Both the position numbers and the translations under genes were made by a program. From a virus: a DNA stretch of 37,925 nucleotides. The stretch covers positions 1-37,925 of IMG/VR virus record IMGVR_UViG_3300044678_002266. The stretch is one strand, 5' to 3'. Positions 1-37,925 of the stretch are shown piece by piece. Under the pieces are notes generated by a model. It did not search any database. It was not told the DNA's origin and worked only from the letters and a program-made list of their open reading frames with translations. How positions within the stretch are numbered: position 1 is the stretch's first letter; each line of letters begins with the position of its first letter.

Positions 1-845
1 CCAACGGTATTACGATTCAGATTACCTTAAAGGGTAATCCCTGCACCAATCTTGGATACTTGGTCAGGCTTGGCACCCTTGGTGACAGTGGCAGTGAACA
101 CCTCGGACATACTGAACGCACCACTCCGTAGGAGTTTCGCACCATTCAGCGTAGCCCTAGGGGACACGATGACCTTCAGCCCCGACTCGGCAACATTTGC
201 CCGAGCCTTACGAACCGCTGTCAGCCACTTCGTGGCGATTATGGCATCCAAGCCAACCGATGCCAACATCGCATCCTCAACCTTCTCATCAATTGGAATC
301 TCCAATTGCACGAATCGGTCAATCGTTGCACCGTCAATCGGATTACGCCCCACATACTCCATCGTGGCACCGCTACCGTAGGTGTTGCCCGTGGCGATAG
401 CGACGAAGTCGGGATGCTTGGGGACGAGTTTGTCGGCGAATGCCATAAACCCGTTGGATAGTGCCGAGTTCAGAATGCCAAGGGCATTTGGGCTGGCGTT
501 ATCCACTTCGTCAATGACGAACACACCGCCACCCTCAAAAATGCGTCGGAATTCCGTAGAACGGAATACGCCCATCGCATCGTTGTAGCCAGTGAATTTG
601 CCCTCGGTCATCGCCGAAGTGCAATTGACCGCACTGAACGGTACCGCCAATGCCTCAGCGACCTGCTCACCGATGGTGGATTTGCCTGTCCCTGCCGAAC
701 CGACTAGCCACAAGTGAATCCCTTGGGATACTGCCCCAAGTACCTTGGGGAACATGAAGTGTTGCGTACCCTTTAGGGTACGAGGTGGCTTGTCCTTCAC
801 GACAATCGTATTTACGATTGGGCGATTGGCTTTCACCAATTCGGT
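1..845. repeat. Terminal redundancy, left copy
   Basis: This stretch recurs at 37082-37925 with an offset of 37,081 bases. The copies are identical for about the first 765 bases and then differ at roughly nine positions in the last ~80. Either the phage has circularly permuted or direct terminal repeats, or a circular genome was assembled with an overlap. It covers the 3' part of the AAA+ ATPase gene. The clustered differences at one edge look like strain variation entering at a contig end. Confidence 0.95.
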
Positions 846-1319
846 CATCTCGTGGCGTAAGCCATCCATAATCGGCGAGACAATCTCACCAACCTTGTCG
901 GCATCCACACCGCCAGTGAAGTCCTGCAAAGCAGAACCGACGACATCCGTAGCGATGCCACGAACAATCTCCTCCAACCCCGTAGGGGATGGTGTTGGTT
1001 TTGGTTGGGGCATTGGCTCCTCCTTCGGAGTCGTTGGTGTTGGTTTTCGTGTTGGTGACGGCGTGAATTCTGGTGCCTTTTCCACGAAGCGGACGACACG
1101 AATGTCGTTCACGATGGCATTGTGAATTTGCATCAATGGCATAGCCATCGGATTCTTGCCGACGAACCGAATACCAAGGTATTTGGCAACGGCGATGACT
1201 TCGGACTTCGGGAGCGACCCAAGAGGTAAAACCTCTTGACCGCCAAAGCGACCCGCTACGGTCACCATTTCTGTCCCCTTGTCGTATCCAAGGATACGAC
1301 GGGCTGGCTGTGCTGGCAT
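27..1319 (-). CDS. AAA+ ATPase, MoxR/CobS-like
   Basis: This 430-aa protein has a typical AAA+ core: Walker A GSAGTGKS at residues 207-214 and Walker B VFVIDE at 266-271, followed by the polar VDNASPNAL segment expected of dynein-related (AAA_5) or CobS/MoxR-type ATPases. Residues 1-80 form an N-terminal domain joined by a Pro/Thr-rich linker (85-113). Phage members of this group are thought to act as chaperone-like remodelling ATPases, often with a partner; the next gene (36168-37034) is a candidate partner, which is inference. The start is the ATG at 1319, which sits after a hairpin-borne Shine-Dalgarno, rather than the ATG at 1430 that has none. The coding sequence contains many perfect small hairpins. 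Its 3' part is duplicated at the other end of the window. Confidence 0.85.
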   Translation of the reverse strand: MPAQPARRILGYDKGTEMVTVAGRFGGQEVLPLGSLPKSEVIAVAKYLGIRFVGKNPMAMPLMQIHNAIVNDIRVVRFVEKAPEFTPSPTRKPTPTTPKEEPMPQPKPTPSPTGLEEIVRGIATDVVGSALQDFTGGVDADKVGEIVSPIMDGLRHEMTELVKANRPIVNTIVVKDKPPRTLKGTQHFMFPKVLGAVSQGIHLWLVGSAGTGKSTIGEQVAEALAVPFSAVNCTSAMTEGKFTGYNDAMGVFRSTEFRRIFEGGGVFVIDEVDNASPNALGILNSALSNGFMAFADKLVPKHPDFVAIATGNTYGSGATMEYVGRNPIDGATIDRFVQLEIPIDEKVEDAMLASVGLDAIIATKWLTAVRKARANVAESGLKVIVSPRATLNGAKLLRSGAFSMSEVFTATVTKGAKPDQVSKIGAGITL

Positions 1320-12979: not shown

Positions 12980-13918
12980 ATGTCTAATCCAAATTTTGAT
13001 GCGTTGTTGTCAACAACGCTCGCAAACTATCGTGACCAACTCACGGACAATGTGTTCACGGCTCGTCCGTTGACATACTTCCTGCAGGACAAGGGTCGCA
13101 TCCGTATGCTTAACGGCGGAACCAAGATTGTTGAACCATTGATTTATGGTCAGAACAGCACGGTTGCATCGTACGCTGGATACGATTCGCTGTCACTGTC
13201 ACCGCAGGCGGGCATCACTGCCGCAGAGTACGACTGGAAGCAGTACGCTGCATCCATCTCAATCTCGGGCATTGAAGAAGCCAAGAACAACGGTGAACAG
13301 GAAATCATTAACCTTTTGGAAGCCAAAATTATGCAGGCTGAAGAATCGTTGCGTGAAGGTTTCAACCAAATGTTCTTCGCCGATGGCACTGGCAACAGTG
13401 GCAAAGACTGGAACGGTTTGGGCAACATCGTAGAGGCAAGCGGCACCGTTGGTGGTATCAACCGTGCAACTTCTGGAAACGAGTATTGGCGTTCGTACGA
13501 GGAAAACACCGCAACTGCGTTGACTCTTGCTCAAATGTCAACGGCATACAACACGGTATCGGTTGGCAATGACCACCCAGATATGATTCTTACGACTCAA
13601 ACCCTGTTTGAGAAGTATGAAGCACTTTTGGTTCCGCAACTTCGTTACACTGACACCAAGACTGCAGATGCTGGTTTCCAGAACCTGCTTTACAAGGCTG
13701 CTCCAGTGGCTTACGATGTTCACTGCCCAGCAGGAGTAATGTTCTTCTTGAACAGCAAGTACCTCACTTTGGTGGGTCACTCGGGTAAGTGGTTTGCACA
13801 AACAGCGTTCGTATCCCCTGAGGATGTGGATGCCCGTTATGCGCTCATTATGTGCTACGGCAACCTAACTTGCCGTAATGCAAAGAAGCAAGGCAAACTG
13901 ACCGCTAAGACCGCCTAG
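12980..13918 (+). CDS. Major capsid protein
   Basis: This 312-aa protein follows portal and scaffold genes and has the size and composition of an HK97-fold coat protein. Segments such as LTYFLQDKGRIRMLNGGTKI, YDWKQYAASISISG, a long helix INLLEAKIMQAEESLREGF and FADGTG resemble phage capsid families of this type. Gene regulation looks special: a 7-bp RBS hairpin in front and a strong GAAA-loop hairpin behind, which fits high expression. Confidence 0.87.
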   Translation: MSNPNFDALLSTTLANYRDQLTDNVFTARPLTYFLQDKGRIRMLNGGTKIVEPLIYGQNSTVASYAGYDSLSLSPQAGITAAEYDWKQYAASISISGIEEAKNNGEQEIINLLEAKIMQAEESLREGFNQMFFADGTGNSGKDWNGLGNIVEASGTVGGINRATSGNEYWRSYEENTATALTLAQMSTAYNTVSVGNDHPDMILTTQTLFEKYEALLVPQLRYTDTKTADAGFQNLLYKAAPVAYDVHCPAGVMFFLNSKYLTLVGHSGKWFAQTAFVSPEDVDARYALIMCYGNLTCRNAKKQGKLTAKTA

Positions 13919-19988: not shown

Positions 19989-21062
19989 ATGGCTAAGAAT
20001 CCCCAAAAACGCAAAGCGTCAATTGGCTCGTTGACTCCAGCCCAACAGAAAGCGTTTCAGGCTCAGTTAGACCTTCAAGAGCGTGTCCTTAAAATGGCTA
20101 CTGCTCAGGCTGACCGTGAGCAACAAGCCTACGAGTCCAGTATTGCCCGCCAGCAGGAAAGGGCTGAGCGTGAAGCACAGTTTAATGCGCTGAACGAAGT
20201 TGCCAAAATTTATTCTGGTCAGGCAGGAAAATATGGTAAACAGTTTGATGATTATTCGTCCGCTGCTACTGGAACAAGAGATGCGGCTTTGCGCCAATTA
20301 ATGGAATCAGCGGGTCGTAGCGAAAAAGCAATTACTGGTGCCGAAACTGATACATTGGCTAATTTGATTGCAACGAAAGCATATCGTGATATTCCAGTGC
20401 TTGAGTTGGGGCAGCAGCAAAATCCGTTGTTGGCTGGGTTGGCTGCCGAAGGTGCGTCAACGGCTGGTGTTGAACAGCAGTCCGCACAGGATGCCCAAAT
20501 TGCTGCACAGTTGGCTGCTATGACTCGTGGTGCCATGGGGCAATTAAATCTCGGTGAGGAAAATTATCTTAAGGCGTTACAGAACGCTGTGCGTTATGAG
20601 GGCGGTCTTGCCCGTCAAGATTTGGCTGGTCGCCAGTTTGGCATACGCCAAGGTATCGGTTCGGAATATGACCAGTTGGCTCAACGGATTGCCCAGCAGC
20701 GTTTGGAGTCTGTGTCTGGTGCTGAAAGCAAGTCTGCGGAAGCGTTGGCGCAAGCCCAAGGCTTCGCACCCATTGAAGAAGGTGAGGCTCCTGCGGCGTT
20801 TGATTATAATGCGGCTTTGGAAAATGCTCGCCGACTGGCAATGCAGCAAGTCAACAAGTCTTTGCCATTTAGAAGTAGCGGCAATAAGACTCCGACTACG
20901 AATGTTTCTCAGCCAACTGGTTTGGGTAGGGTTTCTGATTTGTTTGGCAAAGTTACTGTTCCGTATCAGAAATTGCCCAAGGGTGCAACATTGACCGACC
21001 AACAAATTAAACGCCTAGCGGAGGCACAGGATATTCAGGCACTTCGTCAACGAGGTTTGTAA
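19989..21062 (+). CDS. Internal/ejection-type virion protein B
   Basis: This 357-aa protein is Ala/Gln/Glu-rich and largely helical (QLDLQERVLKMATAQADREQ; ERAEREAQFNALNEVAKIY), with a Lys-rich start and a C-terminal flexible part. Such composition is typical of podovirus internal virion proteins that leave the capsid with the DNA. The ATG at 19989 follows a weak AGG; GTG at 19986 is the alternative. Confidence 0.6.
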   Translation: MAKNPQKRKASIGSLTPAQQKAFQAQLDLQERVLKMATAQADREQQAYESSIARQQERAEREAQFNALNEVAKIYSGQAGKYGKQFDDYSSAATGTRDAALRQLMESAGRSEKAITGAETDTLANLIATKAYRDIPVLELGQQQNPLLAGLAAEGASTAGVEQQSAQDAQIAAQLAAMTRGAMGQLNLGEENYLKALQNAVRYEGGLARQDLAGRQFGIRQGIGSEYDQLAQRIAQQRLESVSGAESKSAEALAQAQGFAPIEEGEAPAAFDYNAALENARRLAMQQVNKSLPFRSSGNKTPTTNVSQPTGLGRVSDLFGKVTVPYQKLPKGATLTDQQIKRLAEAQDIQALRQRGL

Positions 21063-21065
21063 CCC

Positions 21066-24000
21066 GTGGCAGTAGTCCCTAGTCCTTTTAGTAAGACGAG
21101 TGGCGGTAATCAGCCGATTCCGCCACGACCTCCCAGTCCAGAACAAACCGCTAGTCAGCGGCGTGCTAAAGAGTTTTTGGAATTGGATAAGAGTGTTGAT
21201 TCGGCTATTCAGCGTGTTCGGGCGCAACCGCCCGAACGAATGTCCGAAAAGGAAAAACAGTTAGTAATAGCAGAAATTGAAAAGTTGGCAAAGACAGGCA
21301 AGAGTACGGCTGAGTTGCCTGAGTTTAATCGTTTTGCTAAGTTGACTGGGGTAGCCAAGTCGGTTGCTTCTGCTGTCATTGCACCGTTTTCTCCTAAGTA
21401 TAATCAGGTTAGCGATGTAGCAGCGAAAGCATTTAGAGGGGTTACTCGTGTTGGTCAGTCTGCAATTAAAGAAGGTGTTGCAGATGTTCGTGTTTCGCAG
21501 GGTATGGACCCATTTCAGTTGCAGGATGCGTTGTCTTTTCTGGGTGCTGGACAGTTTTCTCCCGCTGGTCTGATTCAGAAAGGCGCAGAAAAGATTGGTG
21601 TTTATGACAGCAAACTTGACCCAAAACTTAAGGCTGCGTTAGACAAACAGGGCAAGGCAATGAAGGATGATTATAAGCCTTCGTTTAAGCAGTTTGTTTC
21701 TCAAGTTGCTGATTCTGATTGGAAATATAAGAATACGGCAACGGCAGCAGCCGTTAGAGAAACTAATCCGATTGTTGGTTTTGCTTCGGAGTTGGGTGTT
21801 GATATTGTTGCAGACCCAACGACTTATATAACTGGTATTGGAAATGTAAAATATATTGGGCGTGCTGGCAAGTTAGCACTTGCCCAAAGGTTGATGACTA
21901 CTGAAAAAGTTGCACAATATCCGCAATTGGCTGGTAGAACGCAGGATATTATTCGTTTTGGTCAGAATGCACCAATCCCAGGATTTAAGGACATTCTTAA
22001 GGCTGAAGGCATTGAGACTGGTGTACGAGTATTGGGAAATATCGTTAAGGGCAGTGAGCGTGTTTCTAAGCCCGCTGGTCTTGCTGTTTCGGCTACTTGG
22101 GAAAGTATGATGGACCTTGCGACCAAGATTAGAAGCACAGAGAAGTTGTCTAATTCGCCTGCCAGCCGTTCGTTTATGATTGATGCTGGTCGCATGACCA
22201 AGGGCGCGTATCGTGTAGATGACGCTACGGCATTACAGCAAGTTGCGAATTGGTCTGCCCGTCAATACGCCAAAGGTTGGACACCATCTTTTGCTCGTAA
22301 GTATTCCGCCGAAATAGCAAAAACGGTTGATGCTGCACGAGCGCAGGGTCTTGGCGATGATTTGGCTGATTTGGTAGAGCGTGCAAATCCAGACAATTTT
22401 GCTGGCAAAGTTATTTTTGATTCGTTGCCAACACCGCAACAAGACCTTGTTCGGGAGTATTTGGATTGGCAAAACAAGATTTATAAAGAAACCGAATCGG
22501 TTTATAAGAAGTTTGGTGTTGACTTTGGCACCGATGTTGCAGATTTCTCATTTGTGGAAAATTATATTTTCCACAAACTAAGCAAAGAGGCTGCCGATTT
22601 TATTGCACAAAACACTGGCAAAACAAGCCGATTCAGTAAATTCTTTGATGGTGGGCTTGATGTTGCCGACATCACGGACTTGTCTGCGCCATTGCGTTTC
22701 CGCAAGTATCGCAAAGGCAGCGAATTCATGGGCGAGGAAGTCAAAGAGGGAACTATTCGTGAACTCAACGAAATCTTTAAGCGTCAAACTGGCACCGATA
22801 TTAAGTTTTTTGAGACTGATATCGGTCAGATTGCGGAATCATATTCATATTCGTTGGCTAAAATGCAGGGTCGTGAACGGTATATTCGCCGCTTGATGGA
22901 TTATGGGGATGTTGGCGCAGCCAAACTGTTGGACAAAACTATTCCAGACCCCGTTCTCCGAGCGGCAACAAAAACGGAAATTGACAAATGGCTTGAGGTT
23001 CGCAATACTGTTCGTGGCAGTTTGGCACGAGGTATGAATGACTTGAAGCAGGTCGTTCGTCGTGGAATCAACGATGCTCAAAACATCGTTGATGGTAACC
23101 TTCGCAAACTTGGTACACCAACCACCAAAGGAACTAATCAACTTGCACGAGAAAAGATTATTCGTCGTATTGAGGAGTTGCAGGATAACATTGTTAAGTT
23201 GCGTGACAAAGCCGAGACTGTTGGCGTAGACAGGCGGGGAGAGTTTGATACGATAAACTCTGGGTTGTTGCAGAATTTGCAGAACCTTAAACTTAGTTTG
23301 CAAAATGGAACTGAGGAACTGGACGAAATTCTGTTGGGTCTTAAAACGACCTATCAGGCTATGTATCCGAATAAGACGAATATTCCTGACGACATTGATA
23401 TTTTGGCTGACCGAATTATGGCTGTAAAGGGTATTCCTTCTTCTCGTGAGGGTAGGGCTATTAATACGCAGATTAATGCTTTGCGTGCACAATTGTCTGA
23501 TTTGTCTCCGTCTAGCGAGGAGGCAACGGAGTTGGGTGCTGAGATTGCACGCCTGAAGGATTTGGATAACGGGTTCCGTGTTGCTTCCGAATATAGGGCT
23601 GCGCAGGATTATGCGCCTGATAACGGGTTCTTGTTTATTTCTGGTCGTGAAATGGCTGAAACGGATGAGATGCAGATTGGTGTAAAGTTGTTGCGCACTA
23701 GCGCAAATGGTTTGCCTGACCCGAATGATGTTATGGCTGTGCGTGTGTTTGGCAACGACGAATTAATTGATACTCGTACTACTGGTGGTGTTGCTAGGAC
23801 TTTTGGTGTGTTTGATTTTGGTGACGGTTTGCTTGACCAAATGGATTTGGCTGGAATAGACGCTGCTCCGCTGCGAGATGGTTTGGATGCTGTGCGTGTT
23901 GGGTTGCCGATTGACCCAGAGTTGGAACAAGCGTTCCCTGAGGTTGCTGATTTGATTAAGTTGCTTGAAGGCAATACTGCGAGAGAAATTTTGCCGTATG

Positions 24001-34629: not shown

Positions 34630-34805
34630 TTTGCAGCCTCCTGCATTTGTGTTTCTCCGCCACCGTGCCGATTGCACACTGGTCGGAATTCTAACGGAAT
34701 GTGAACCTGAACCCAAGTGGAACACTTGGGGCACACAAACCTAGTACCTGAACGGAACTTCTGGGTGGGGGGCTTACGCCCCTCACCCGTCTGCGAATCC
34801 TGCAT
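34626..34805 (-). CDS. 59-aa zinc-ribbon mini-protein
   Basis: A TAATG junction with the upstream DUF3846-like gene opens a 59-codon frame: a polar start, then TRFVCPKCSTWVQVHIPLEF followed by RPVCNRH. The CxxC and C-x-x-H pattern indicates a small Zn ribbon. The stop overlaps the next ATG. It fills exactly an otherwise empty 175-nt gap. A 10-bp hairpin (34763-34788) lies in its coding sequence. Confidence 0.75.
   Translation of the reverse strand: MQDSQTGEGRKPPTQKFRSGTRFVCPKCSTWVQVHIPLEFRPVCNRHGGGETQMQEAAK
34632..34645 (-). promoter_or_regulatory. RBS hairpin before the 104-aa gene
   Basis: Minus-strand arms UGCAG and CUGCA enclose GAGG, so the AGGAGG Shine-Dalgarno fills the loop. It lies in the last codons of the 59-aa gene, 2 nt before the ATG at 34629. 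Confidence 0.6.
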
Positions 34806-35422
34806 TACTCATCATCTCCTTCGTTTTCGTTGCCCATCATAGAGTGCATAAACGCACGCTTCAGTATGTCCTGCAACTCCTTCGGCATTGACCCGATGGT
34901 GTCGTACGCCAAGCCCTCATCCCTGCCCTTCTCGCAGTACGCTATAATCTTGTTCGCCTCGGACATAGACACCACTTCGTCCGCAACCGCTCGGGAAAGA
35001 GCCGAAGCCAGCATCTTGGAAAACATCAGCGACATACTCACCTCCTCGTGCAAACTGGTCGTAATGTAATCCGTGAAATCCGCAGGGACATCATAGTTCT
35101 CACCGTCATACTCGCCAGTCTCAGGATTCGTACCCGACACCAACAGCACATCGCCATAAATGTTCTGCTCAAACAAAACCGTAGCAACGGGATTCAGGGG
35201 CAGGTCAATAATTCTGCCTTCGTCGTGGACATAGCCAACAAGAATGAAATTCTTGTTTTTGCCTGAAGTATCCAGACAGCCACGGCGAACAGCGTCAATC
35301 GTGCCACCGACGACCTCCTGAATCTCCGTGAGTGTGTCTTTGTCTCCGCCACCGATAAGCAGTGGCTCGGGAGCCACGGCATTATCCGCTTTGATTACCA
35401 CTGCGCTTGTCATTCCAAACAT
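34805..35422 (-). CDS. DUF3846-like early protein
   Basis: This 205-aa protein contains LTEIQEVVGGTIDAVRRG and DEGRIIDLPLNPVATVLFEQ followed by IYGDVLLVSG, a layout like the DUF3846-type phage proteins (recalled), whose function is unknown. The C-terminal half is helical. ATG 35422 follows GGAGG by 5 nt; the GTG at 35428 overlaps the Shine-Dalgarno and was rejected. Hammerhead B would cut 59 nt upstream of the start. Confidence 0.65.
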   Translation of the reverse strand: MFGMTSAVVIKADNAVAPEPLLIGGGDKDTLTEIQEVVGGTIDAVRRGCLDTSGKNKNFILVGYVHDEGRIIDLPLNPVATVLFEQNIYGDVLLVSGTNPETGEYDGENYDVPADFTDYITTSLHEEVSMSLMFSKMLASALSRAVADEVVSMSEANKIIAYCEKGRDEGLAYDTIGSMPKELQDILKRAFMHSMMGNENEGDDE

Positions 35423-35440
35423 AAACACCTCCAGTGTTTA
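35422..35440 (-). promoter_or_regulatory. RBS hairpin before the DUF3846-like gene
   Basis: Minus-strand arms UAAACAC and GUGUUUA (7 bp) enclose UGGAG, so GGAGG is half in the loop and the A of the start codon is in the stem. It lies 13 nt after the 3' edge of hammerhead B. Confidence 0.8.
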
Positions 35441-35452
35441 CAAGTCGTTTCT

Positions 35453-35518
35453 GGACTCATCAGCACCACTATTTAGTGGTGGACATCGGGGTATCACCCG
35501 TACCCCGATGTTTCGTCC
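35453..35518 (-). ncRNA. Type II hammerhead ribozyme B
   Basis: Minus-strand order: GGAC (stem II 5' strand, 35518-35515), GAAA (35514-35511), stem III of 10 bp (arm CAUCGGGGUA), UC with the predicted cut between 35482 and 35481, stem I 35481-35464 (7 bp, arm CACCACU, loop AAAU), CUGAUGA (35463-35457) and GUCC. All core residues match the consensus, and stems I and III differ in sequence from copies A and C while keeping perfect pairing. It lies between the 80-aa membrane gene and the DUF3846-like gene. Confidence 0.94.
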
Positions 35519-35558
35519 TGCAATCCATCATAGCACCAGCCACGGCGCAAATGGTGGA

Positions 35559-35801
35559 CTATCGGTATCGCCTACGGCGAGAGAGTTTCCGCAACTCAGC
35601 CCGTTGATAAGCGTCCCATTCCCGTTTCACCTCATAGCAACTCACAATGAACGGAAACCAACCAATCACAACCACCGCCAATGCGAACATCGCACCAGCA
35701 TACGGCAACCCGTTTATGTTCACGAAAACCAGCGCACTAATCGCCAGCCCACTCAAAGCACAAACCGTGGACATAACACACGATGTGACAAAATACTTCA
35801 T
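35559..35801 (-). CDS. Small membrane protein, unknown
   Basis: This 80-aa protein has two hydrophobic segments (VMSTVCALSGLAISALVFV; GAMFALAVVVIGWFPFIV) and a basic C-terminus (ELRKLSRRRRYR) that would stay in the cytoplasm. Function unknown; a membrane-active early protein is possible. It starts 2 nt after the preceding stop. Hammerhead B follows 40 nt after its stop codon. Confidence 0.65.
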   Translation of the reverse strand: MKYFVTSCVMSTVCALSGLAISALVFVNINGLPYAGAMFALAVVVIGWFPFIVSCYEVKREWDAYQRAELRKLSRRRRYR

Positions 35802-35803
35802 AA

Positions 35804-36058
35804 TTATTCACCCCCTTCCGTATCCAACCAACTCTGAAGCGCATAGACGATGTCATCGTGGATGGCGGACAACTCCCACTCCTGAATGCCATAATCACCG
35901 ACGACTGCGTTCCACGCATCCAACGGACACGAATCTAATTCATCGTCACCTTTGGTGAGAATACTGTCACCAAAATGTTCACGCCCCCACCAAGCGATTA
36001 CGATTTCCTCATCAGGTGGCATCTCTTGTAAATAATTAATTGCTTGACTCACTCGCAT
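35804..36058 (-). CDS. Small acidic early protein
   Basis: This 84-aa, acidic protein starts MRVSQAINYLQEMPPDEEIV, a layout seen in small phage and bacterial proteins of unknown function, and ends IHDDIVYALQSWLDTEGGE. The start ATG at 36058 is base-paired within an 8-bp RBS hairpin; GTG 36064 was rejected. Hammerhead C would cut 58 nt upstream of this start. Confidence 0.65.
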   Translation of the reverse strand: MRVSQAINYLQEMPPDEEIVIAWWGREHFGDSILTKGDDELDSCPLDAWNAVVGDYGIQEWELSAIHDDIVYALQSWLDTEGGE

Positions 36059-36077
36059 AAACACCTCCAGTGTTTAT
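36057..36077 (-). promoter_or_regulatory. RBS hairpin before the 84-aa gene
   Basis: Minus-strand arms AUAAACAC and GUGUUUAU (8 bp) enclose UGGAG. The first two bases of the start codon are in the stem, so translation should need opening of the hairpin. Confidence 0.8.
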
Positions 36078-36087
36078 AAGCCGAACT

Positions 36088-36154
36088 GGACTCGTCAGCA
36101 CAAGCATCTACTTGTGGACACGGAGCGCACACAACCACACTCCGTGTTTCGTCC
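36088..36154 (-). ncRNA. Type II hammerhead ribozyme C
   Basis: Minus-strand order: GGAC (36154-36151), GAAA (36150-36147), stem III (7 bp, arm CACGGAG, extendable with G-U pairs), UC with the predicted cut between 36117 and 36116, stem I 36116-36099 (6-7 bp, arm CACAAG), CUGACGA (36098-36092) and GUCC. The variable core position is C instead of U, which is allowed (CUGANGA). It lies 13 nt after the 288-aa gene. Confidence 0.93.
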
Positions 36155-36167
36155 TACGCTGTCGCTC

Positions 36168-37034
36168 TCACAGCACACCCAACCCACTGAGCGTTGACAT
36201 CACCCAATCCACTGGCTGGTGTCCCTCGTACTCATCCTTGCCCGATTGCAACATTTCGCAGGCAACATCGGCACCGAGTCGCTCCGCCGACTCCAACGAT
36301 GCAGGATACCCGTAGGAGTTCTTGACACAATACTCGGCACGCTCCCAATCGGAACGCTCCAACATTGAGAATTGCACTCGGCGAAACATACTCGGATGAC
36401 ACAACGCAAACATCAGGTTGTTTATGTCCAACATCTGTTGCGAGTCGTGCAATTTCACCACCGACGAATACACCTTGCCATCTCGGGCATTTATCCCCGA
36501 GTCGTTTATGGGATACTCAACATACGCCTCAACACCCATCCCCAATTTGTGGACAGCATCAATCAGGGCACACACAACCACACCCCTTCTGATTATGCGT
36601 TTCGGGTCAACATACGCCGAACACGAGCCATTGACAACGATTCGGACAACACGCCCCATCCTTTGGGATGGTTCAGGTACGAAGTCAATCATACACTCAG
36701 GTTCACCGCTCAAGAAACGCCCAACATCCACCTGCACACCCTGATAGTCGTAGCGTGACTGGAATGCGGACTCCAACCGCTCCGCCAATTGCGACTCCAA
36801 TTCTGTGAACATACGCTCCACTTCGGGACGAATCTCCTCGTACCCTTTGTGCCCCAATGTCACCGCCTCGGATAGCGTTCTGGTGTTGCCTGCCCAATCC
36901 CCATCGCCTGAGCGGTTGGATGATTTCGGGTCGGGATTTTTGCCTGCATAATCCAATGCTTCGTGCAGTGAATCAAATTGCTCAATCCATAAGGATTTTG
37001 CGTAGCGTGAATTGGCTTTTTTCGTGACTTGCAT
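36168..37034 (-). CDS. ATPase-companion protein, unknown function
   Basis: This 288-aa protein begins MQVTKKANSRYAKSLWIEQF and has a helical N-terminal half (YEEIRPEVERMFTELESQLAE) and a C-terminal mixed domain (RRGVVVCALIDAVHKLGMGV; KVYSSVVKLHDSQQMLDINN). The VVVCALIDAVHKLG stretch recalls von Willebrand-like or CobT-type partners of MoxR/CobS ATPases, and its gene follows the ATPase gene, so a joint role is proposed by inference. Start 37034 was chosen for its RBS hairpin; the longer frame starts without one. Hammerhead C follows its stop. Confidence 0.6.
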   Translation of the reverse strand: MQVTKKANSRYAKSLWIEQFDSLHEALDYAGKNPDPKSSNRSGDGDWAGNTRTLSEAVTLGHKGYEEIRPEVERMFTELESQLAERLESAFQSRYDYQGVQVDVGRFLSGEPECMIDFVPEPSQRMGRVVRIVVNGSCSAYVDPKRIIRRGVVVCALIDAVHKLGMGVEAYVEYPINDSGINARDGKVYSSVVKLHDSQQMLDINNLMFALCHPSMFRRVQFSMLERSDWERAEYCVKNSYGYPASLESAERLGADVACEMLQSGKDEYEGHQPVDWVMSTLSGLGVL

Positions 37035-37037
37035 AAT

Positions 37038-37054
37038 CAACACCTCCAGTGTTG
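37038..37054 (-). promoter_or_regulatory. RBS hairpin before the 288-aa gene
   Basis: Minus-strand arms CAACAC and GUGUUG (6 bp) enclose UGGAG. The ATG at 37034 is 3 nt past the stem. Confidence 0.75.
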
Positions 37055-37062
37055 GTAGTTGT

Positions 37063-37088
37063 CCGTTGGGGCAGGATTGCCCCAACGG
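37063..37088 (-). repeat. 10-bp hairpin between ATPase and companion genes
   Basis: Perfect arms CCGTTGGGGC and GCCCCAACGG enclose a 6-nt loop. A second hairpin (arm GATTACC) overlaps the ATPase stop codon (37100-37119, same as 19-38). There is no U-tract, so these may stabilise the 3' end of the ATPase message rather than terminate it. Confidence 0.6.
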
Positions 37089-37925
37089 TATTACGATTCA
37101 GATTACCTTAAAGGGTAATCCCTGCACCAATCTTGGATACTTGGTCAGGCTTGGCACCCTTGGTGACAGTGGCAGTGAACACCTCGGACATACTGAACGC
37201 ACCACTCCGTAGGAGTTTCGCACCATTCAGCGTAGCCCTAGGGGACACGATGACCTTCAGCCCCGACTCGGCAACATTTGCCCGAGCCTTACGAACCGCT
37301 GTCAGCCACTTCGTGGCGATTATGGCATCCAAGCCAACCGATGCCAACATCGCATCCTCAACCTTCTCATCAATTGGAATCTCCAATTGCACGAATCGGT
37401 CAATCGTTGCACCGTCAATCGGATTACGCCCCACATACTCCATCGTGGCACCGCTACCGTAGGTGTTGCCCGTGGCGATAGCGACGAAGTCGGGATGCTT
37501 GGGGACGAGTTTGTCGGCGAATGCCATAAACCCGTTGGATAGTGCCGAGTTCAGAATGCCAAGGGCATTTGGGCTGGCGTTATCCACTTCGTCAATGACG
37601 AACACACCGCCACCCTCAAAAATGCGTCGGAATTCCGTAGAACGGAATACGCCCATCGCATCGTTGTAGCCAGTGAATTTGCCCTCGGTCATCGCCGAAG
37701 TGCAATTGACCGCACTGAACGGTACCGCCAATGCCTCAGCGACCTGCTCACCGATGGTGGATTTGCCTGTCCCTGCCGAACCGACTAGCCACAAGTGAAT
37801 CCCTTGGGATACTGCCCCAAGTACCTTGGGGAACATGAAGTGTTGGGTACCTTTGAGGGTGACGGGTGGCTTGTCCTTCACGACAATCGTATTTACGATT
37901 GGGCGATTGGATTTGACCAATTCGG
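37082..37925. repeat. Terminal redundancy, right copy
   Basis: Matches 1-844. The window edge cuts the ATPase gene. Differences from the left copy cluster in the last ~80 bases and change two residues (R to V after KPP, A to S in VKAN), with further silent changes. Confidence 0.95.
37108..37925 (-). CDS. AAA+ ATPase, partial second copy
   Basis: This is the same gene as 27-1319 seen again through the terminal redundancy; only the C-terminal ~270 residues are in the window. It should not be counted as a separate gene. Confidence 0.9.
   Translation of the reverse strand, partial: ELVKSNRPIVNTIVVKDKPPVTLKGTQHFMFPKVLGAVSQGIHLWLVGSAGTGKSTIGEQVAEALAVPFSAVNCTSAMTEGKFTGYNDAMGVFRSTEFRRIFEGGGVFVIDEVDNASPNALGILNSALSNGFMAFADKLVPKHPDFVAIATGNTYGSGATMEYVGRNPIDGATIDRFVQLEIPIDEKVEDAMLASVGLDAIIATKWLTAVRKARANVAESGLKVIVSPRATLNGAKLLRSGAFSMSEVFTATVTKGAKPDQVSKIGAGITL

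Follow-up and report, generated by a model that had tools for sequence, protein, structure and literature searches.

The window analysed here, i.e., the whole stretch of 37,925 nucleotides (nt) of the IMG/VR virus record IMGVR_UViG_3300044678_002266, is a phage contig containing three type II hammerhead ribozymes, each situated between the stop codon of one gene and the ribosome-binding site (RBS) of the next. Probably, these hammerheads cut the transcript between the genes, and a hairpin termed H2, formed by the linker behind the ribozyme and a strand of the catalytic core, would lock the leader of the downstream gene, an arrangement similar to that of the synthetic insulator RiboJ. The position, geometry, and conservation of the hammerheads are established below, as is H2 as a statistically supported covarying structure.

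Hammerheads between stop codons and ribosome-binding sites

All three hammerheads lie on the minus strand. Hammerhead A (35453–35518; 46.8 bits) has its predicted cut at 35482/35481, 59 nt before the ATG at 35422, hammerhead B (36088–36154; 51.7 bits) at 36117/36116, 58 nt before the ATG at 36058, and hammerhead C (1724–1779; 56 bits) at 1752/1751, 62 nt before the ATG at 1689, where each count runs from the base following the cut to the ATG. Exactly these distances had been given in a preliminary description of the window, which also placed the third site (1689–1779) across the circular junction; this is correct, because the ends of the window overlap and the junction is spanned by a separate contig (L124). 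The first base of hammerhead C is overlapped by the TAA stop of the upstream gene, and the upstream stops of A and B are situated 40 and 13 nt from the hammerhead, respectively. A descriptor scan found the core intact at all three sites (CUGANGA, GAAA, and the cut site GUC), with stems III, I, and II of 11, 8, and 4 bp in A, 12, 8, and 4 bp in B, and 9, 7, and 4 bp in C. The architecture is that of type II, i.e., an NUH cut site (GUC), looped stems I and III, and an open stem II.

Sequence comparison confirms the three type II hammerheads as real, self-cleavage being predicted. The strict descriptor gave no match in 100 Markov shuffles of the window, and 1.06 Mb of shuffled loci contained no match of type I, II, or III. 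With a covariance model derived from 32 sites in other phages, the clade of the window being unrepresented among them, exactly these three sites (46.8–56 bits) and nothing else were reported in the window. All 15 pairs are kept in the 32 aligned sites and 13 of them have changed on both sides, the 100% pairing being partly due to construction, since the rows were picked by a descriptor that requires the stems. The Rfam family RF02276 has no match in the window, neither at the gathering threshold nor at E-values up to 10.

A search with the DUF7192 protein encoded upstream of hammerhead B yielded four related genomes (L120–L123, around 70% protein identity), in all of which the DUF3846 gene is preceded, and DUF7192 followed, by a hammerhead. 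The gene following the latter hammerhead varies (58, 86, 56, and 55 amino acids (aa) in the relatives, 84 aa in the window), and L122 and L123 possess an extra gene-hammerhead unit as well as a hammerhead immediately before the AAA gene. Among the window and five related genomes (including L019), the cut-to-start distance is 57–62 nt at each of the 17 sites for which a start was located, and stem sequences and several downstream genes differ among these sites; the unit recurs in relatives with a spacing that is not random, a check that the preliminary description had proposed. The named podovirus-like genome MW202803, with a terminase 49% identical, contains one hammerhead of different sequence in the corresponding early region, with a clear H2 (CUGAC...GUCAG).

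For a wider comparison, IMG/VR contigs were searched for an exact core pattern, with genes called by a small purpose-written caller instead of curated annotation; site counts refer to the matches listed. In this first set, 176 of 183 hammerheads are followed by a gene on their own strand, the cut-to-start distance has a median of 55 nt (quartiles 49–61), and the upstream stop is found at a median of 2 nt from the ribozyme (94 of 177 within −2 to +2). A second IMG/VR scan, an independent set with GUA cut sites, replicated this geometry with at least 67 hammerheads, and a similar picture was obtained when the spacing was analysed without gene calling. In a non-redundant set of the hammerhead class found in the window (class A, defined below; 228 sites listed), the median distance is 54 nt, 74% of the distances are within 38–70 nt, and the commonest end position of the stop codon, counted from the ribozyme, is −1 or 0. 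The conserved A at position −5 lies inside the stop codon at 69 of 191 sites, and this position is A in 97% even where no stop codon covers it. The downstream genes are diverse across phages. Concerning the distances, the lower limit of around 40 nt reflects packing, because the 28 nt of downstream ribozyme, the Shine-Dalgarno (SD) sequence, and the spacer make up much of them; the informative parts are the narrow upper side of the distribution and the 57–62 nt of the clade. The strict pattern had 17 matches in a collection of 257 Gb of bacterial and archaeal genomes.

Type I hammerheads are also found in corresponding stop-to-start gaps (at least 127), with a median cut-to-start distance of 41 nt and often only 20–30 nt. 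This suggests that the point shared by both types is the cut between stop codon and RBS, and not a 5' end capped by a hairpin. In several type I hammerheads (L178–L255), a TAA is situated inside stem I beside the core (GGUUAA-CUGAUGA).

The type II sites were divided into class A, with a stem I hairpin of 16–19 nt (including those of the window), and class B, in which this hairpin measures at least 20 nt. The pseudoknot pairing loop I with the 3' tail, i.e., a helix of four or more pairs, is present in 35 of 41 class B sites vs 13.0 in shuffled sequences, whereas in class A the frequency is at chance level (27 of 228 vs 27.3), such that this pseudoknot was rejected for the class of the window. 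Class A sites exhibit an A immediately 5' of stem II in 96%, a share that is 97% where no stop codon accounts for this base, and their loop I usually starts with U. By analogy, we infer that loop I might make a contact resembling the reverse Hoogsteen pair described for type I and III hammerheads (PMC6155905). Concerning annotation, RF02276 reports only one of 62 descriptor-found class A sites in 15 loci (L084, 5236–5300); its other two matches in these loci are class B sites, which it does detect. RF02276 thus misses almost all pseudoknot-free phage type II hammerheads (L002–L122), and since the standard RNA library barely covers the subclass, its annotation among phages is probably incomplete.

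The H2 hairpin and its possible roles

Directly after stem II, the linker is complementary to the 3' half of the catalytic core, which allows the hairpin H2 in two registers (CUGAN with NUCAG, and NGAGUC with GACUYN). In the window, all on the minus strand, H2 of site A (35440–35460) pairs AUGAGUC with GACUUGU, i.e., core positions A6 to 10.3 with the linker, with a calculated P(H2) of 0.96 in the downstream product, and H2 of site C (1718–1734) pairs CUGAUGA with UCAUCGG (P(H2) of 0.99), a hairpin also seen at the corresponding site in L124. H2 of site B (36078–36093; GAGUC with GGCUU) is weak, contains two G-U pairs, and is below the counting cut-off.

For the statistical test, pairing was limited to linker bases 1–16 and to loops of 4–9 nt, a rule chosen after the sequences had been viewed. 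H2 was found at 48 of 139 sites vs 11.7 ± 3.0 with shuffled linkers, similar linkers having been dropped to lower phage relatedness without kinship being modelled. Since this restriction was set post hoc, the independent sites of the later scans, which were not used for the rule, constitute the fair test: here, H2 is present at 17 of 52 sites vs 4.1 ± 1.9 in shuffles. H2 is four to seven times commoner than in shuffled linkers and occurs at about a third of class A sites; a shuffle test of core-linker pairing over the whole linker had little power. Furthermore, the core base N7 and the tail covary: the combinations U-AUCAG (17), U-GUCAG (2), C-AUCAG (1), and C-GUCAG (14) deviate strongly from independence (Fisher p 1.6e-6). 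Both kinds are found within a single genome in L097 and, with a G-U variant, in L015, and at three sites stem II variants are followed by matching tails. The median cut-to-start distance is 56.5 nt at H2 sites vs 49 nt at the others (p 0.001), and H2, which is absent from the preliminary description, accounts for much of the spacing of around 60 nt. Sites with a purine at N7 mostly have short linkers, with the SD sequence directly after stem II. In a group of phages (L049, L088, L314, and L317), up to seven hammerheads occur within around 8–13 kb; in most of them N7 is a purine, the linkers are very short, and H2 is absent.

Since H2 draws on the catalytic strand CUGANGAGUC, it forms only at the expense of the ribozyme; as it excludes the active fold, it is either a lock after cutting or an off-state. 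According to the reading considered probable here, the ribozyme would be complete once stem II is transcribed and would cut an early polycistronic transcript in the gap that separates the stop codon of one gene from the RBS of the next, shortly ahead of the latter. The message upstream would end in the stem III hairpin, and the downstream message would possess a short leader with the stem I hairpin at its 5' end and H2 ahead of the RBS. Cutting would remove the other strand of stem II, upon which H2 could fold and lock the products apart, giving the downstream gene a fixed folded leader that is independent of the preceding transcription. The fates of the two messages would be separated, such that stability and translation of neighbouring genes are uncoupled. 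That cutting takes place in the cell, in which order the steps follow, and what advantage the uncoupling brings are what we infer. The preliminary description had likewise assumed that the ribozymes dice an early polycistronic transcript; the stop-to-start placement across unrelated phages fits a polycistronic message cut between genes, an idea dating from 2011, and separate regulation of the resulting messages might follow from it.

Several results weigh against cutting followed by an H2 lock. With H2 at only about a third of the sites, the hairpin is not essential; where N7 is a purine (A or G), the predicted tail UUCAG or CUCAG is found at none of 41 sites; and in the window, the RBS hairpin described below conceals part of the SD sequence, so that the leader is not simply an open RBS. 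Moreover, base-pair probabilities calculated for the uncut RNA at H2 sites favour H2 (median 0.94) over the ribozyme (0.01), in a calculation that ignores tertiary contacts. This preference makes a regulated off-state a serious rival: H2 might be one state of a true two-state switch, for which the chances appear rather low but not negligible, and cutting would then be a regulated event. As triggers, transcription speed, a ribosome on the upstream stop covering the GGACGAAAC strand, ribosome loading at the downstream RBS, or a factor may be considered. The pre-cut preference is harder to reconcile with a pure post-cut lock than with a switch, with a median pre-cut probability of stem II of 0.01 at H2 sites vs 0.42 elsewhere; H2 is transcribed only around 5–15 nt after completion of the ribozyme, and the stop codon overlaps or abuts a ribozyme strand at a large share of sites. 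However, the energies omit the loop I contact favouring the ribozyme, two thirds of the sites do without H2, the upstream stops of A and B are 40 and 13 nt away, and no ligand or protein site is known. The choice of the catalytic strand between hammerhead and H2 might be set by translation of the neighbouring genes, a tentative proposal with about the same chances as the switch, made because the stop is often built into the ribozyme and the RBS directly follows H2; if true, cutting would report or set the translation state of the operon gene by gene.

It is unlikely that message stabilisation alone, by hairpin-capped ends resisting exonucleases and RNase E as envisaged in the preliminary description, explains the unit. 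The type II topology does leave a hairpin at both new ends, and RiboJ raises transcript abundance, an effect that its authors suggest is due to the terminal hairpin (PMC6206723); however, type I hammerheads in the corresponding position leave the downstream 5' end without a hairpin, so that a protected 5' end is not the whole reason. The hammerheads could also mark the boundaries of exchangeable small-gene cassettes and serve as recombination anchors, cutting being secondary, in line with the varying genes after hammerhead B, the extra unit in L122 and L123, and the diverse downstream genes. This is very unlikely, given that the stems diverge strongly with pairing kept, which leaves little shared sequence for recombination, and that selection on cutting, not recombination, explains the invariant core bases. 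Least probable are inactive chance or decayed motifs: the sites are absent from the Rfam listing, but shuffled sequences gave no match and orthologous sites keep all stems with different sequences.

Ribosome-binding-site hairpins and gene context

Ahead of all three downstream starts of the window, the SD sequence is enclosed in a hairpin (AAACACUGGAGGUGUUU or CAACCUAGGAGGUUG, −6 to −9 kcal/mol), situated on the minus strand at 35421–35441 before the DUF3846 gene, at 36057–36077 before the 84-aa gene, and at 1695–1709 before the 73-aa gene. Nearly all leaders of the 17 sites in the clade fold as three hairpins in series, i.e., stem I, H2, and the RBS hairpin. The preliminary description regarded the RBS hairpin as part of the repeated unit, which holds for the three sites of the window but not for the unit in general: within the clade, early genes that lack a hammerhead have the hairpin as well, and among other phages it is found at 13% of genes downstream of hammerheads vs 9% of other genes and 8.5% in shuffles, such that it was rejected as a component outside the clade. 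The RBS hairpin is a clade trait. A perfect SD hairpin (of the CCUAGGAGG type) precedes many early genes of the clade (e.g., at starts 1319, 1689, and 37034), and one is found at the plus-strand gene at 12980 (TTTTTCCTAGGAGGAAAAA); it may constitute a separate element of translational control.

The ends of the window overlap (37082–37925 vs 1–844) with nine mismatches, all beyond base 764, i.e., in the final 80 nt (37846–37925 vs 765–844), which suggests either variation between strains or an artefact of assembly where the contig ends. Contig L124, which crosses the junction, carries hammerhead C, the 73-aa gene, the AAA gene, and DUF7192. The plus strand contains the structural genes (terminase, portal, capsid), and a block on the minus strand the replication genes (AEP primase, DnaB-type helicase, and others), with the AAA ATPase, DUF7192, and DUF3846 genes towards its upstream end; all three hammerheads are located inside this one-direction block. 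On the minus strand, hammerhead A is preceded by an 80-aa gene (35559–35801) and followed by a DUF3846-like gene of 205 aa (PF12957, phrog_3777; 34805–35422). Hammerhead B lies between the DUF7192 gene (PF23822, 288 aa; 36168–37034) and the 84-aa gene (35804–36058), in place of which the relatives have a different small gene. Hammerhead C lies between a 101-aa gene (1779–2084), whose stop codon overlaps it, and the 73-aa gene (1468–1689). The AAA ATPase gene (PF07728, phrog_249; 27–1319, minus strand) possesses an RBS hairpin and no hammerhead of its own in the window. Intrinsic terminators and sigma-70 promoters near the three sites are no more frequent than in shuffles. RNA repair genes were not found among the Pfam matches of the window or the PHROG families shown; with no RNA ligase found, there is no obvious phage enzyme for ligating the cut ends. 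In MW202803 (L313), 20569–21669 is annotated as an RNA ligase.

Comparison with known systems

The function of bacterial and phage hammerheads has been described as an open question (PMC6155905). In 2011, it was proposed that long phage transcripts may be cut into single-gene mRNAs by hammerheads (PMC3088659). According to that account, hammerhead clusters flank single prophage genes, three native arrays were tested, such arrays cleave in vitro and in E. coli, and self-cleavage in E. coli was found for native tandem hammerheads of A. tumefaciens (PMC3088659). The type II hammerheads published there (Perreault et al. 2011; RF02276) share the core and the open stem II with those of the window; however, their consensus includes a pseudoknot of loop I with the 3' tail, which is not found above chance in the subclass of the window. 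Furthermore, an almost invariant A stands ahead of stem II in this subclass, nearly all tested sites of which escape RF02276. Neither the stop-to-start geometry nor H2 was found in the accessible part of the 2011 type II account (PMC3088659), and for the geometry, the pseudoknot-free subclass, and H2, no description was found in openly accessible papers (subscription papers and supplements being outside this search). H2 is apparently undescribed before, and geometry, subclass, and H2 are the additions beyond the 2011 dicing idea.

Other viral ribozymes share single aspects with the unit. The variant hammerhead of the haloviruses HF1 and HF2 is situated in the early region, 13 nt upstream of a start codon, and the 5' end of a mapped transcript is no more than 3 nt from the cut site; in contrast to the window, it has a variant core and is a single site in an archaeal virus (PMC3088659). 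The theta ribozymes of gut phages (PMC10879173) are likewise self-cleaving phage ribozymes that process a phage transcript at a defined place, whereas their fold is like that of hepatitis delta virus and they cut tRNA 3' ends, not between protein genes.

The order of hammerhead, hairpin, and RBS is the same as in RiboJ, which consists of the type III hammerhead of sTRSV and a 23-nt hairpin (PMC6206723, PMC7536230) and which in E. coli raises mRNA around twofold and protein 2–10 fold (PMC6206723); in the window, this order is found at A and C and, with a weak H2, at B. After RiboJ has cut, the downstream gene keeps a fixed leader with a hairpin, as may also be the case for the phage unit. However, the RiboJ hairpin was added separately and the element is placed after a promoter, whereas the phage H2 reuses the catalytic strand and the unit is situated between genes. 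The fixed geometry of stop codon, ribozyme, and RBS in many unrelated phages, together with H2 covarying with N7, a core base that is normally free and not expected to be constrained, provides a short list of testable mutations, and the subclass offers natural counterparts of this widely used synthetic insulator.

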